Shown piece by piece: positions 29,296 through 50,718 of a stretch of DNA of 64,000 bases. The notes beneath the pieces were generated by a model that worked only from the letters and a program-made list of their open reading frames with translations, did no database searches and had not been told where the DNA came from. Numbering within the stretch: the stretch's first letter is position 1; each line of letters starts with the position of its first letter. Both the position numbers and the translations under genes were made by a program. This DNA comes from Candidatus Eisenbacteria bacterium. Lineage in GTDB: Bacteria; Orphanbacterota; Orphanbacteria; Orphanbacterales; Orphanbacteraceae. The DNA lies in NCBI GenBank assembly GCA_016930695.1, contig JAFGGD010000030.1, positions 244,321 through 308,320 on the forward strand, written 5' to 3'.

Positions 29296-30204
29296 TCAGC
29301 GCCCGGAGGGGATCGGCTTCTTCTCCCGGAAACGCCTTGTGAAGCGGATCAGCGCCTCCATCGGATCCCCTTCCGGGAAGAGCGCCTCCTCGGCGGCGCC
29401 GAGATCCTCCTCGTCCATCGTCTCCCAGACCGGAAGGCGGGCCGGGTTCAGGATCGCCGCGTCCAGCCCCTTCTGCGCGGCGCGCCGGAAGAAGAGCGCG
29501 TTCACCGCGTCCCGTCCGGCGGGGGGGAGGCCGAAGCTGACGTTGGAGATGCCGAGCACCGTACTCGTCCCCGGATACTCGCTCTTCAGAAACGCCACCG
29601 CCTCCAGCGTCGCCGCCGCCGCTCCGTCGTAGGAGGGATCGCCGGAGGCGCAGGGGAAGACGAGCGCGTCCCACCAGAGAGACTCCGGCGTGAGGCCCCC
29701 CTCGTCGACGAGGAGACGGTACGCCTCGCGCGCCGCGGCCCGCTTCCTCTCCGCCGTGACCGCGGGTCCCTCGATGTCGATCAGCCCGGCCACCACCGCC
29801 GCGCCTCGCTCTCGCGCCATCTCCGCGAGACGCGCCGCGCGCTCCGGCTCCGCCGGCTGCGCCGAGTTCAGCACGCACCGCTCAGGCCAAATGCCGAGCG
29901 CGCGCTCCATCACGTCCGCGTCGGTGCTGTCGATCAGAACCGGAACGCGCGTGTCCGGCCTGCCGAGAAGCGCTTCCATCAGTCGCTCCATGTCCGCGCT
30001 TTCGTCCCGGGTGACGCTCTGCACGCAGATGTCGATCATCCCCGCCCCGGCGCGGATCTGCGCCGCCGCGATTCCCGCCGCGTCCTCCCAGCGATCCGCT
30101 TCGATCACCTCACGGAAGCGACGGCTGCCGAGGACATTGGTCCTCTCGCCGATCAGAAGGGGGCGGACCGGATCGTCAAACCGGAAGGGTCTCTCGTTGG
30201 TCAC
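29296..30204 (-). CDS. Pterin-binding (dihydropteroate synthase-like) domain protein, MetH type
   Basis: 302 residues, a TIM-barrel pterin-binding domain as found in methionine synthase and in corrinoid methyltransferases. LIGERTNVLGSRRF opens it; GAGMIDICVQS, VPVLIDSTDADVMERAL, NSAQPAEP and STVLGISNVSFGLP are typical folate-site motifs. It would bind methyl-THF and pass the methyl group to a corrinoid. The cobalamin-binding and reactivation domains of full MetH are not attached. It overlaps the homocysteine methyltransferase/MTHFR gene by 29 bp, so the two work in one pathway. Confidence 0.85.
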   Translation of the reverse strand: MTNERPFRFDDPVRPLLIGERTNVLGSRRFREVIEADRWEDAAGIAAAQIRAGAGMIDICVQSVTRDESADMERLMEALLGRPDTRVPVLIDSTDADVMERALGIWPERCVLNSAQPAEPERAARLAEMARERGAAVVAGLIDIEGPAVTAERKRAAAREAYRLLVDEGGLTPESLWWDALVFPCASGDPSYDGAAAATLEAVAFLKSEYPGTSTVLGISNVSFGLPPAGRDAVNALFFRRAAQKGLDAAILNPARLPVWETMDEEDLGAAEEALFPEGDPMEALIRFTRRFREKKPIPSGR

Positions 30205-32044
30205 TCCGAATCTCCTCGAGAAGGGCGGTCACCGCCTCCGTTCTCCCGAAGGGTGCCGCAACCTGCACCCCCCGCACAAGCCCGCGGATCGCCCGGAAGG
30301 TCTCCCGCGCGATGGCGATCCCCTCGTCCCGCGCCTCCTCCCGTGTGCGGCACCCCGCGAGCCTCTCGATCAAACGGTCCGGCACGTCGCAGCCGGGGAC
30401 CTCGTTCCTGAGGAACTCGGCGTTCCGGAGCGACTGGAGGGGCCAGACGCCGGCCACCACGGGGGCGGGGAGAGGGGCCGCCCGTTCCAGAAAACGCTCC
30501 AACACCTCGGGGTCGAAAACCGGCTGGGTGATGACGCACTCCGCGCCGGCGCGCAGCTTCCCGTGGAGACGTTCCGCCTCGCGGGCCGGGTCGATCGCCC
30601 CCGGGTTCGCCCCCACGGCGATGAAGAAGCCGGTCGGCTCTCCGATCGGATCGCCCGCCGCGTCCAGCCCCCGGTTCAGCCGGCTCAGGATGTGAACGAG
30701 ACCGATGGAATCGACATCGAAGACCGCCGTCGCGTCCGGGTAATTCCCCAGCTTGGGCGGGTCGCCGGTCACGGCGAGAAGATTCCGCACGCCGAGCGCC
30801 CAGGCGCCGAGGAGATCCCCCTGCATGCCGATCACGTTCCTGTCCCGGCAGGTGAAGTGCAGCACCGTTTCGATCCCCGCATCCGCGTGCACGCGAAGCG
30901 CGAGAGCGAGAGCGCTCATCCTCGCCATCGCGCGCGGCCCGTCGGGGATATTGACCGCGTCGACTCCGAGGGCGCGCAGCTTCCGCGCCGTCTCGATCTC
31001 CCGGACGGGGGAGACGCCACGCGGAGAGACCACCTCCACCATCGTGACGAACTCCCCGGCGGCGATCCGCGCGGCCAGACGGCTCTTCTTCTCCACGGGA
31101 ACCGGCTCCGCCTCCGGCGACGGCGCCGAGTCCCTCGGCCGGGCGGGGATCGCCTTCGCGCGGGGAGTCGCGGCGCGGAAGGCGCGGGACATCGCCTTCA
31201 GGTGGCGGGGCGAGACGCCGCAACAACCGCCGACGATTCGCGCCCCCGCCTCCAGAAAACGCCCGGTGTAGGCGGCGAGATATTCCGGCGTGGAGAGGTA
31301 GATGTTCCGCCCGTCCACGCCGCGAGGGCGCCCCGCGTTGGGCATCACCGAGAGGGGAACCCCCGCGGCGAGCGGCGCCGCCCGCTCGAGCCATTCCAGC
31401 ACGGCGTGGGGGCCGACGGAGCAGTTCACCCCCACCGCGTCGGCTCCTATGCGGAGCAGCTCCCGGATCAGTTCCTCCGGCGGCGCCCCCGTGAGCGATC
31501 CGCCGTGCTCGGCGAGCGTCGCCTGGGCGATCACCGTCAGATCCGGCGCCGCCTCTCGGCACGCCCGCACCGCGAGCGCCAGCTCTTCGACATAGATAAA
31601 GGTTTCGCACAAAAAGCAATCAACGCCCCCCTCGGCGAGGGCGCGCGCCTGAACGAGGAAGAGATCCTTCGCCCTCTCCGGATCGAGCCGGCCGAGAGGG
31701 GCCGTCCGCACGCCGAGAGGGCCGATCGCGCCGGCCACGTAGCGATCCTCGCCCGCCGCCTCGCGGGCGATCCGCGCGCCGGCGAGGTTGATCTCCCGGC
31801 ACGCCTCCGCCAGACCGTGCGCCTCCAGCTTGACCGGATTGGCGCCGAAGGTGTTCGTCTCGATCGCCTCGGCGCCCGCCTCCAGGAAGGCTTCGTGAAC
31901 GGCGCGGACCGCCGCCGCATCGCACCGGTTCAGGTGATCGAAACAGGCGTTCAGCGAGACGCCCCGCTCGTAGAGGGTCGTCCCCACGCCGCCGTCGAAG
32001 AGCAGGGGGCTCCGCTCCAACCTCGTTCGGAAATCGATCCGCAT
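30176..32044 (-). CDS. Homocysteine S-methyltransferase fused to methylenetetrahydrofolate reductase
   Basis: 622 residues. Residues 1-290 are the homocysteine-binding barrel: DGGVGTTL at the start, a zinc site formed by Cys208 (GVNCS) and Cys274-275 (GGCCG). Residues from about 330 are a MetF-type FAD domain: EVVSPRG, VTGDPPKLGNYPDA and ITQPVFD. The same fusion is known from B. subtilis YitJ and other bacteria. It would supply methyl-THF and bind the acceptor, with the pterin protein encoded next to it and overlapping. Upstream (32045-32179) is copy B of the palindromic repeat. Confidence 0.9.
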   Translation of the reverse strand: MRIDFRTRLERSPLLFDGGVGTTLYERGVSLNACFDHLNRCDAAAVRAVHEAFLEAGAEAIETNTFGANPVKLEAHGLAEACREINLAGARIAREAAGEDRYVAGAIGPLGVRTAPLGRLDPERAKDLFLVQARALAEGGVDCFLCETFIYVEELALAVRACREAAPDLTVIAQATLAEHGGSLTGAPPEELIRELLRIGADAVGVNCSVGPHAVLEWLERAAPLAAGVPLSVMPNAGRPRGVDGRNIYLSTPEYLAAYTGRFLEAGARIVGGCCGVSPRHLKAMSRAFRAATPRAKAIPARPRDSAPSPEAEPVPVEKKSRLAARIAAGEFVTMVEVVSPRGVSPVREIETARKLRALGVDAVNIPDGPRAMARMSALALALRVHADAGIETVLHFTCRDRNVIGMQGDLLGAWALGVRNLLAVTGDPPKLGNYPDATAVFDVDSIGLVHILSRLNRGLDAAGDPIGEPTGFFIAVGANPGAIDPAREAERLHGKLRAGAECVITQPVFDPEVLERFLERAAPLPAPVVAGVWPLQSLRNAEFLRNEVPGCDVPDRLIERLAGCRTREEARDEGIAIARETFRAIRGLVRGVQVAAPFGRTEAVTALLEEIRSDQRETLPV

Positions 32045-32179: not shown

Positions 32180-32713
32180 TCAGCGGTTCCGCACGCCCCA
32201 GCCGTCGAACCCGATCGCCGGGTCGTCGTAGGGGAGACGGTACTCGTCGCCCGGGTTGTAGGTCTGGTTGGTGTAATAGACCATCAGGAGGTCCGCGCCG
32301 GGGAGGACTTCATAGCCGTGAGCCACGCCGGCGGGGATGCGCACCGCCTTCGGGTAAAGCTCCCCCGCGAAGATCGAGTTGGCTCGACCGTAGGTGGGAG
32401 AGTCGGGGCGAAAGTCGACGAGCGCGATCCGCGCGGTACCGGTGAGAGGGCAGAAGATGTCGTCCTGGAAACGGTGATAGTGGAACGCCTTGATCACTCC
32501 CGCCCGGGTCCGGGTGATGGAACTCTGCCGGACCGCGAATCCCTCGGCGACCGGATCGCTGTCGCGGAACACCTCGGCGAAATGACCGCGGTCGTCCGGG
32601 TAGAGGGCGATGGGGTGCACCACCACACCGGCGATCCGTCCCTCCTCGGCCCCCGAACCTCCAATGACGGCGTGCCCCCGGGCACGGACGGGCTCTACGC
32701 GGACCGGTTCCAT
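32180..32713 (-). CDS. dTDP-4-dehydrorhamnose 3,5-epimerase-like protein (RmlC family)
   Basis: 177 residues from ATG 32713, which has a strong GAGGAGGG ribosome site; an earlier ATG at 32743 lacks one. Cupin fold of the RmlC type: DDRGHFAEVFR at the start, GVIKAFHYH where GVLRGLHYQ is usual (catalytic His kept), IPAGVAHGYEVL, and YDDPAIGFDGW at the end. The segment after the His (RFQDDIF) differs from the usual QGKLV, so the substrate or reaction may differ, for example single epimerisation. It is separated from rmlA-rmlB by the folate genes. Confidence 0.78.
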   Translation of the reverse strand: MEPVRVEPVRARGHAVIGGSGAEEGRIAGVVVHPIALYPDDRGHFAEVFRDSDPVAEGFAVRQSSITRTRAGVIKAFHYHRFQDDIFCPLTGTARIALVDFRPDSPTYGRANSIFAGELYPKAVRIPAGVAHGYEVLPGADLLMVYYTNQTYNPGDEYRLPYDDPAIGFDGWGVRNR

Positions 32714-32743
32714 ACATCCCTCCTCGGCGGAAAAACCCCGCAA

Positions 32744-32811: not shown

Positions 32812-32840
32812 TTGACTAGGCGCAACTCCTTTGGTATGAT
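32812..32840 (+). promoter_or_regulatory. Strong sigma70-type promoter of the exopolysaccharide locus
   Basis: TTGACT (32812-32817), an exact 17-bp spacer and TATGAT (32835-32840); five of six bases match in each box. Transcription would start near 32847, giving a leader of about 370 nt before the first glycan gene at 33220. One of the two best promoters in the window by eye. Confidence 0.65.
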
Positions 32841-32881
32841 TCCGTTCGCTCGCGGGAACCATCCCGCGCCACCGCGCTTTT

Positions 32882-32899
32882 CCCCCCCGGCCGGGGGGG
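32882..32899. repeat. 18-nt perfect palindrome in the leader
   Basis: Seven C, then GGCC, then seven G. It follows CGCGCTTTT. In RNA it would be an extremely stable hairpin about 35 nt after the predicted start of transcription; in DNA it could bind a dimeric protein or stall polymerase. No U-run follows on either strand. Confidence 0.5.
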
Positions 32900-32997
32900 T
32901 TCCGGACCGTCGCCCGGGAGCGATCCGGGCGGGCGCGGCGCCCATCTTTCGCAGCGGAAAGGAGTATCGCCTAGGACACCTTGCTAAGGAGCGGCCG

Positions 32998-33093
32998 ATG
33001 GCCGTGCGCCATCGCGACGGAATCGAAGCGGCGCCGCCGCGACCATCGGATCGGAGGAAAAGAAGGAACGCCTTCCTTCGGGAGGCTCTTTAG
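32998..33093 (+). CDS. Possible 31-residue Arg-rich leader peptide (upstream ORF)
   Basis: ATG 32998 is preceded by AAGGAG (32986-32991) at a spacing of 6 nt, an excellent ribosome site. The peptide starts MAVRHRDGIEAAPP and ends AFLREAL; 8 of 31 residues are Arg and there is no hydrophobic segment. Its ribosome site lies in one strand of a 13-bp helix whose other strand contains its own stop codon (TAG 33091-33093). That arrangement suggests translation-dependent control of the operon, but a chance ORF in a structured leader cannot be excluded. Confidence 0.35.
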   Translation: MAVRHRDGIEAAPPRPSDRRKRRNAFLREAL

Positions 33094-33219
33094 CAGGCGC
33101 GGCTGACTCGGAAGCCCACTCCCAAGTGCGCATCGTGTCGTTGGGATCGGAGGCGGCCGGGTACGCGGATCGCGCGGCCCGGCCCTGTCATTTGGGTCCG
33201 GTCGGAAGGAGGCCGCGGG

Positions 33220-33846
33220 GTGACCCAGGCGAGAGAGGCGGGTCCGATTTATCGGACCGTGAAACGCTTGATGGACGTGATCGTTTCGGCGTCCATCCTG
33301 CTCCTTTTCGCGCCCCTCTTCCTGATCCTCGCCGTTCTGATCCGTGTCGATTCGCCGGGGGGACCATTTTTCCGGCAGGTCCGCGTGGGAAAACAGGGAA
33401 AACCGTTCAACTTTTACAAGTTTCGGTCGATGATTAAAGACGCGGAGCGTTATAAGACGAGTCTGCGGGATCTGAACGAGGCGGAGGAGCCGCTCTTCAA
33501 AATGAGGGAGGACCCCCGGGTCACGACGGTGGGTAAAATCCTCCGCAAAACGAGCCTCGACGAGCTCCCGCAGATGTGGAACGTTCTGCGGGGCGAGATG
33601 AGCCTGGTGGGGCCGAGACCCCATCTGCCCGAAGAGGTGGAGCGGTACACGCCGGAACAGCGGGAGCGCCTTTCGGTCATACCCGGCATCGTGTGTCTCT
33701 GGCAGGCCACCGAGCGCTGTTCCAACGCGTTCAACGACTGGATCGAATCGGACTTGGAGTACATCCGGACGCGATCGGCGGCGACGGACCTGCGGATCGT
33801 GCTTCGAACGGTGGGAATCGTCCTTTCATGGAAGAGAGCGTCGTGA
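33220..33846 (+). CDS. Priming phosphoglycosyltransferase (short bacterial sugar transferase)
   Basis: 208 residues, the small monotopic phosphoglycosyltransferase form without extra N-terminal helices. A reentrant hydrophobic segment ([20 protein letters not shown]) is followed by [36 protein letters not shown] and [13 protein letters not shown], the active-site region, and IPGIVCLWQ. It moves a sugar-1-phosphate onto undecaprenyl phosphate to start a repeat unit. GTG start with GGAAGGAGG 7 nt upstream. A second, longer enzyme of this kind lies at 49228. The WQATERCSN segment differs from the usual WQVSGR. Confidence 0.88.
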
Positions 33847-49227: not shown

Positions 49228-50718
49228 ATGGAGACGGAGCAAACCCGAACGTCGGAACGGAGGAGGGAGGCGCGGAATCGCACCCTCCTCCTGGTGGTCG
49301 TGGACGGAGCGGTGATCTTCGCCAGCTTCCTCGCCGCCTATTGGTTCCGTCTCCAGTCCGGGATCTTCATCTCCAACATTCCGATGCAGACCTTCCACAT
49401 CATCGGGGCGCTGGCGGTCTGCGCGCTCTGGATCGTCATCTTCGGCGCACACGGCCTCTACCGCCGGGAGGTCTATCTCTCCGTCTTCGACCAGATGATC
49501 GGGATCTTCAACAGCGTGAACGTGGGGGTCCTGATCATCCTGGCCACCGCTTTCGTGACGAAGCAGAACTACTTCCTCGAGAGGCGCCTCATTCTGGCCC
49601 TCGCGTGGGCGCTCGTCATACTCTTGATGATCACGGTCCGCGTCTTCGTCATCCGGACGGCGCTGCTCCGCAACCTGCAACGGGACCCCTTCCGCGTGCG
49701 GATCGCGGTGGTCGGCGCCGGGGAATCGGGCCACCAGTTCGTGCGCCTGGTCCGGCACACCATGGCCCAGTCCTACGAGATCGTCGGTTTCGTCGACGAC
49801 GACCCGGAGAAGCAGGGGCGCGTTCTCGAAACACTTCCCGTCCTGGGAACCGTGGCCGACCTGGACCGGATCGTGACCGAACACCGTGTGGAGCTGATCT
49901 TCGTGGCGGTGCAGACCCTCCACGAGGAGCCGATGATCGACCTGATCTCCCGCTGCATGCGCGCCGGCGTGCCGGTGAAGATGATCTCCGACCAGTTCCG
50001 CATGTTCGCCGCGGACACCAAGATCGAGAAGGTGGGGGGGATCCCCACGCTCGGCGTGAAGGAGAACCCGCTCCGGGGACCGGCGTACTTCCTGAAACGG
50101 CTCGCCGACCTCGCGACGGCGGTGGTGCTCATCGTGCTGCTCCTTCCGTTTTTCGGGATGATCGCGATGCTGATCAAATCCTTCTCACGCGGCCCCGTCC
50201 TCTTCCGGCAGGAGCGGGCCGGGCAGAACGGCGTGCCCTTCGCCTTCTACAAATTCCGCACCATGCGGGTCGATTCGGACGACAGCATTCACCGCGAGTA
50301 CGCCACGAACTTCATCGCCGGCAAGGAAATGGACCTGAAGGACGAGACCCAGGGCGACCGACCTGTCTACAAAATGACAAAAGACCCGCGGGTGACTCCG
50401 ATCGGTGCTATTCTCAGAAAGACGAGCCTGGACGAGTTGCCGCAGCTCTACAACGTGCTCCGCGGTGAAATGAGCTTGGTCGGGCCCAGGCCCCCGATCA
50501 TGTATGAGCTGAAATACTATAAGGAGTGGCACAAGCGGCGTCTGGAGGCGAAGCCGGGGCTTACCGGACTTTGGCAGGTAAGCGGCCGCAGCGAAGTTCC
50601 TTTCAACGAGATGGTGCTGCTCGATCTGTACTACATCGACCATTGGTCCCTAAAGATGGACATGGAGATCCTGGCCCGGACGATCCCGGTCATCCTGTTC
50701 GGGAAAGGTGGCTACTGA
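49228..50718 (+). CDS. Undecaprenyl-phosphate sugar phosphotransferase, long form (WbaP/WcaJ-like)
   Basis: 496 residues. Four N-terminal helices (about 20-40, 52-75, 88-110, 118-138), a nucleotide-binding-like domain (RIAVVGAGESGHQFVRL, GFVDDDPEKQG) and a C-terminal monotopic phosphoglycosyltransferase domain with [40 protein letters not shown] and GLTGLWQVSGRSEVPF. Starts repeat-unit assembly on undecaprenyl phosphate. Two priming enzymes in one locus suggest two glycans, or one specialised copy. Confidence 0.92.
   Translation: METEQTRTSERRREARNRTLLLVVVDGAVIFASFLAAYWFRLQSGIFISNIPMQTFHIIGALAVCALWIVIFGAHGLYRREVYLSVFDQMIGIFNSVNVGVLIILATAFVTKQNYFLERRLILALAWALVILLMITVRVFVIRTALLRNLQRDPFRVRIAVVGAGESGHQFVRLVRHTMAQSYEIVGFVDDDPEKQGRVLETLPVLGTVADLDRIVTEHRVELIFVAVQTLHEEPMIDLISRCMRAGVPVKMISDQFRMFAADTKIEKVGGIPTLGVKENPLRGPAYFLKRLADLATAVVLIVLLLPFFGMIAMLIKSFSRGPVLFRQERAGQNGVPFAFYKFRTMRVDSDDSIHREYATNFIAGKEMDLKDETQGDRPVYKMTKDPRVTPIGAILRKTSLDELPQLYNVLRGEMSLVGPRPPIMYELKYYKEWHKRRLEAKPGLTGLWQVSGRSEVPFNEMVLLDLYYIDHWSLKMDMEILARTIPVILFGKGGY

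Follow-up and report, generated by a model that had tools for sequence, protein, structure and literature searches.

Leader RNAs are a recurrent means of controlling surface-polysaccharide operons, with ops/JUMPstart, EAR and UpxY as cases from Proteobacteria, Bacillales and Bacteroidota. EAR and JUMPstart are leader elements of polysaccharide genes, and EAR has been linked to transcription antitermination (PMC2864571). A further group is formed by the UpxY, LoaP and RfaH systems, among which UpxY involves premature termination in the leader (PMC7819879), a trait predicted for the loci described here as well. The element reported below was found in a 64,000-nucleotide stretch of DNA, called the window, and it shares part of its features with each of these systems. 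Like the epsC motif, or EAR RNA (RF01735), it is a structured leader RNA placed before exopolysaccharide genes; however, EAR, which is known from Bacillales, contains a pseudoknot, whereas here we find a single long hairpin (designated P1) and a GGAG box, at near-fixed spacing, with no Rfam match. As in JUMPstart/ops with RfaH, UpxY and LoaP, the element is short and conserved and stands close to where long polysaccharide operons begin, but its sequence is unrelated to JUMPstart/ops, UpxY and LoaP, and what is conserved here is a hairpin that covaries. Finally, the order seen in most relatives, a leader hairpin and then an intrinsic terminator immediately ahead of the first gene, recalls terminator-type attenuators and riboswitches, from which the element differs in that P1 and the terminator do not generally overlap, and in that one clade has start-codon occlusion instead. 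Rfam covariance models (c-di-GMP-I and -II, EAR/epsC, JUMPstart and others) gave nothing credible on the window leader or on seven Krumholzibacteriota loci, in line with the initial annotation of this DNA, which could assign the leader to no known riboswitch class. In the open-access literature searched, no paper was found that mentions both Krumholzibacteri- and riboswitches.

The leader of the window extends over some 370 nt, from a promoter to a sugar-transferase gene (Table 1). On the same strand, this gene is followed by those of a Poly_export/SLBB export protein, a CpsD-like protein (weak match) and a flippase and, further on, by those of a glycosyltransferase, an O-antigen-ligase-type protein and a larger sugar transferase starting at 49228. 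This second, longer transferase (49228-50718, same strand) combines the CoA_binding_3 and Bac_transf domains. In none of the seven genomes of the window's phylum did the motif search find the leader motif a second time. Upstream of the leader, on the minus strand, lies an ORF resembling an RmlC-type epimerase (32180-32743, read from the sequence). Also on the minus strand, in the region 29296-32044, a 622-aa ORF resembles a fused homocysteine methyltransferase/methylenetetrahydrofolate reductase, and a second pterin-binding methyltransferase-like ORF comes after it.

Table 1. Leader elements and first gene of the operon, in window coordinates
Feature	Position	Strand	Evidence or remark
Sigma70 promoter TTGACT-N17-TATGAT, extended -10 (TG)	32812..32840	+	Promoter scan: 1 found, 0.1 expected
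Conserved 5' box AGGAG	32960..32964	+	GGAG in 25/25 leaders; GGAGG form in Krumholzibacteriota
P1 left arm CTTGCTAAGGAGC	32980..32992	+	Near-invariant TTGCTA at 32981-32986
P1 right arm GCTCTTTAGCAGG	33085..33097	+	13 pairs with the left arm; co-varies in other genera
31-codon uORF	32998..33093	+	Considered fortuitous; absent in the 6 other genomes of the window's phylum
G+C-rich hairpin GGCCGGG...CCCGGCC, then CTGTCATTT	33155..33184	+	Fold prediction; poor U tract
Ribosome-binding site GGAAGGAGG of the sugar transferase	33204..33212	+	Read from the sequence
Sugar transferase (priming glycosyltransferase, Bac_transf), first gene of the operon	33220..33846	+	PF02397, E = 8.4e-65

Taken alone, the features of the window exceed chance by little. 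The initial annotation had pointed to a promoter in front of the leader, to a 13-bp helix and to a 31-codon ORF preceded by AAGGAG, and all three are present in the sequence, the helix being made of 13 continuous pairs, of which 2 are G.U. The fold of the leader, on the other hand, has a z-score of -1.0 relative to dinucleotide shuffles, 12 of 100 shuffles being equally good, and that of the 171-nt leader core a z-score of -1.1; for the complementarity of P1 in the window alone, P = 0.09. The 'at least seven inverted repeats' that had been noted correspond to what is expected of G+C-rich DNA. The leader rises above chance because of comparison: the motif occurs once per genome at the same gene, and P1 re-forms in register. 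Comparison also brought out features not named initially, namely the AGGAG box, the nearly constant distance from it to TTGCTA and an output site that, in relatives, is a terminator or the gene's start codon.

The sample of the window's phylum consisted of seven genomes, all from one family and all carrying the sugar-transferase gene (62 to 66% identity between the window's protein and its orthologues in the six relatives). A pattern search with AGGAG-N13-17-TTGCTA[AT]nG[AG]G found exactly one copy in each of the seven, always before the orthologous sugar-transferase gene. A sigma70 promoter, TTGAC[TG]-N17/18-TA...T, stands upstream of the motif in all seven as well, at a variable distance of 50 to 120 nt, and the stretch between the arms of P1 varies too. 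When the leader core was used as a DNA query over 60 genomes, the similarity search yielded noise only. TTGCTA belongs to the left arm of the 13-bp helix P1, and the partner of TTGCTAnnGAG in the right arm is CTCTTTAGC in genera g1 and g5, CTCTTTGGC in g4 and CTCGATG in g3, the pairing being kept through A-U to U-A and G-U/A-U to C-G changes between genera. Counting one genome per genus, the re-formation of P1 in register in other genera has a combined P of 0.001; in the g2 genome (L035), no convincing right arm was detected (P = 0.47). P1 thus shows the compensatory base changes expected of a conserved structured RNA, and their absence among relatives is one of the outcomes that, according to the initial annotation, would have refuted its proposal.

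The mechanism that had been proposed was a translation-coupled switch, in which ribosomes on the 31-codon uORF would open P1 and P1 would block re-initiation. In the window, the uORF, its AAGGAG and its stop codon do fall within P1. Nevertheless, AAGGAG, taken initially as a near-ideal ribosome site, is replaced by AAAGAG, ATCGAG or AACGGG in relatives, and the letters conserved in the motif are GCTAnnGRG instead. A start codon 3 to 13 nt past the motif exists in the window's genome only, the six others having no uORF at this place, so that the short leader ORF, whose conservation leader-peptide attenuation would demand, is found in one of the seven genomes. Among the 18 Krumholzibacteriota leaders described below, none has a start codon at initiating distance after the 5' GGAGG. 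Judged from these alignments, the uORF switch is already refuted as a conserved function, and we give the mechanism as such hardly any credence. Of the idea of an RNA switch for surface-glycan synthesis there is left a folding leader that probably controls glycan synthesis, while the coupling to a uORF is abandoned.

Outside the window's phylum, a scan of 80 sugar-transferase loci from named genomes found the pattern again in the UBP1 loci L073 and L079 and in L078 (Krumholzibacteriia), in each case about 240 nt before the gene. A covariance model, R1, was derived from alignment A3, in which loops had been trimmed and spacers adjusted by hand, so that its counts lean towards structure. Over 386 other genomes, R1 gave matches in the window's own phylum only; in the phylum of L078 (Krumholzibacteriota), it matched 9 of 80 genomes. 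Model R2, built without editing from nine Krumholzibacteriota leaders, recognised 18 of these 80 genomes. Each has a single copy in the sense direction, followed in every case by the orthologous sugar-transferase gene; the matches of R2 on the opposite strand reflect the palindrome of the hairpin. Of the 18, three are the query loci (L073, L079 and L078), L165 to L170 were read directly, and nine are new. Eight of these nine have the sugar-transferase signature downstream, and the gene of L190, where the match lies near the locus edge, was assigned by its protein N-terminus. All 18 leaders have a sigma70 promoter, with the GGAG box starting 10 to 15 nt past the -10 element and 15 to 18 nt separating GGAG from [UC]UG[CU]UA, and their P1 is a hairpin of about 25 bp. 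Across all 25 leaders, the GGAG box is situated about 13 to 18 nt before UUGCUA. A reading of TTGCT as part of a sigma54 promoter was discarded by eye, the -24 GG being missing or misplaced.

R2 alone misses the leaders of the window's phylum, and the case for a single family is therefore made by the GGAG-N15-UUGCUA block, together with the register of the helix, the promoter and the shared gene. By our own estimate, such a block would occur by chance within about 350 nt of a given gene in roughly 4 cases out of 10,000. Over 387 genomes, R2 gave two matches outside Krumholzibacteriota. One (L209) is a tRNA-proximal terminator hairpin and was dismissed as a chance match. The other, in L210 (1501-1700; 24 bits), is convincing: it comprises GGGAG, UUUGCUA and a helix AAGGUAAGUUUGCU/GGCAAACUUACCUU followed by a terminator, and it precedes wza/wzc, that is, a Poly_export/SLBB gene and then a chain-length-type protein. 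This suggests that the family is wider than the phyla sampled. Two diverged Krumholzibacteriia leaders with GGAGG near their start were also observed. In L141 (1757-2009), which looks like a further relative, the start codon comes directly after a putative right arm; L075 (2450-2783) has a different helix with a strong terminator behind it.

Covariation was assessed on alignment A6, an unedited MAFFT alignment of the 18 Krumholzibacteriota sequences with 25 pairs in two helices. In this alignment, 92.7% of the cells were paired, compared to 45 to 53% when the structure was slid, a control that keeps relatedness but favours a consensus-derived structure. Both sides had changed in 9 of the 25 pairs, a value reached in none of 500 shuffles, although this test is inflated by the relatedness of the sequences. 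For the alignment across both phyla, 91% of the cells were paired, and 6 of 14 pairs had changed on both sides. G.U pairs are frequent in A6 (columns 39-102, for example, are U.G in 10 of 18 sequences), which argues for an RNA rather than a DNA dyad, since a dyad would not keep G.U.

What lies beyond P1 differs between clades. Of the 18 Krumholzibacteriota leaders, 16 have a script-detected intrinsic terminator downstream of P1, close ahead of the ribosome site of the sugar-transferase gene. In the window's phylum, a strong-looking intrinsic terminator, CCGGGATCGCGC-ACG-GCGCGGCCCGG-TTTTTTT, was seen by eye before the gene in L036 (g5), and in both g3 genomes the right arm of P1, CTCGATG, includes the ATG with which the sugar transferase starts. 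The G+C-rich hairpin of the window sits where relatives have their terminator; it is degenerate, and neither of two scans called it a terminator. P1 of the window overlaps neither a good terminator nor a start codon, which counts against the explanation that we favour below. As a general rule, P1 and the terminator do not overlap, and a classic aptamer/antiterminator switch is therefore not evident. In Krumholzibacteriota leaders such as L182, L185, L187, L189, L190, L192 and L194, a U tract, for example CAGCAGTTTTTTT, often closes P1 itself, which may thus be a terminator in its own right, with the second one in tandem behind it. In L073, L079, L078 and L165, a run of 9 nt in the apical loop is a perfect complement of the terminator's 5' arm (TTCCGCCCG/CGGGCGGAA; GCCTGCCCG/CGGGCAGGC). 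A loop-to-terminator pseudoknot acting as antiterminator was considered and set aside, the perfect 9-bp match being confined to that clade.

The best reading of these leader comparisons is that of a new family of cis-regulatory leader RNAs controlling exopolysaccharide operons, mostly by premature termination. RNA polymerase, starting at the sigma70 promoter if this is used as predicted, would transcribe the GGAG box and, about 15 to 18 nt further, the UUGCUA strand, which would pair back on the downstream strand to form P1. In most relatives, P1 is followed by the intrinsic terminator directly before the first gene; one genus of the window's phylum, and less clearly L141, has the right arm of P1 at the start codon instead. 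The folded leader would keep the operon off until a factor or ligand relieved this through the GGAG...UUGCUA strand. We assign a probability of about 0.6 to this scheme, that is, to a cis-acting leader RNA of exopolysaccharide operons, from a family absent from Rfam, that is off when folded and relieved by such a factor or ligand. The conserved hairpin probably decides the readthrough of the operon. We infer that P1 corresponds to the off state and that the element is regulated; the copy in the window presumably still works.

The opposite polarity would apply if the leader were a processive-antitermination element (EAR- or put-like), in which P1 would act from the nascent transcript on the polymerase during elongation and let it pass the nearby terminator and the whole length of the polysaccharide operon, the folded form being ON and possibly unregulated. 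It would suit such an element that the leader occurs once per genome, where a long polysaccharide operon with all its genes on one strand begins, that it is close to the transcription start, and that the terminator downstream of it must be passed. P1 and the terminator are sterically compatible, and the epsC/EAR motif provides a precedent in exopolysaccharide leaders (PMC2864571). The location of the P1 right arm at the start codon in g3, and perhaps in L141, suits repression better, however, and P1 often has its own U tract, while Rfam reveals no similarity to EAR or JUMPstart; we consider antitermination of this kind possible but rather unlikely. Antitermination of the RfaH/UpxY/LoaP type was rejected, each of the seven genomes of the window's phylum having one NusG-family gene (PF02357) and thus no specialised paralogue being found. 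The GGAG box could also be a CsrA site, CsrA/RsmA-type binding blocking or altering the folding. In some leaders, GUACAGGGAGGUGUAC resembles the CsrA consensus, GGA falls in a possible 5' hairpin with stems that covary (AUGUAC/GUACAU, AUGUCU/AGAUAU, AUAGAA/UUCUAU), and the window genome has csrA genes. But 11 of 16 motif-bearing genomes, including one that is about 100% complete, contain no match to the CsrA family, which argues against a general role of CsrA, and the 5' hairpin P0 around GGAGG is weakly significant overall (P = 0.03). Such control is therefore very improbable in our opinion.

A broader proposal, which we put forward tentatively and as rather less than an even bet, is that the GGAG box and the UUGCUA hairpin form a new and ancient class of regulatory RNA for exopolysaccharide operons, present in at least two phyla and one further lineage. 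It may sense a signal or, with no need of a NusG paralogue, may act directly on RNA polymerase, and its output would have switched between termination and start-codon occlusion. If the leader RNA acts as we favour, a separate RNA family would carry out, in uncultivated phyla, the same task as the described polysaccharide leaders, once per genome and in a form recognisable by covariance. A wider search, and the identification of the ligand or protein, could then start from models R1 and R2 and the 25 sequences.
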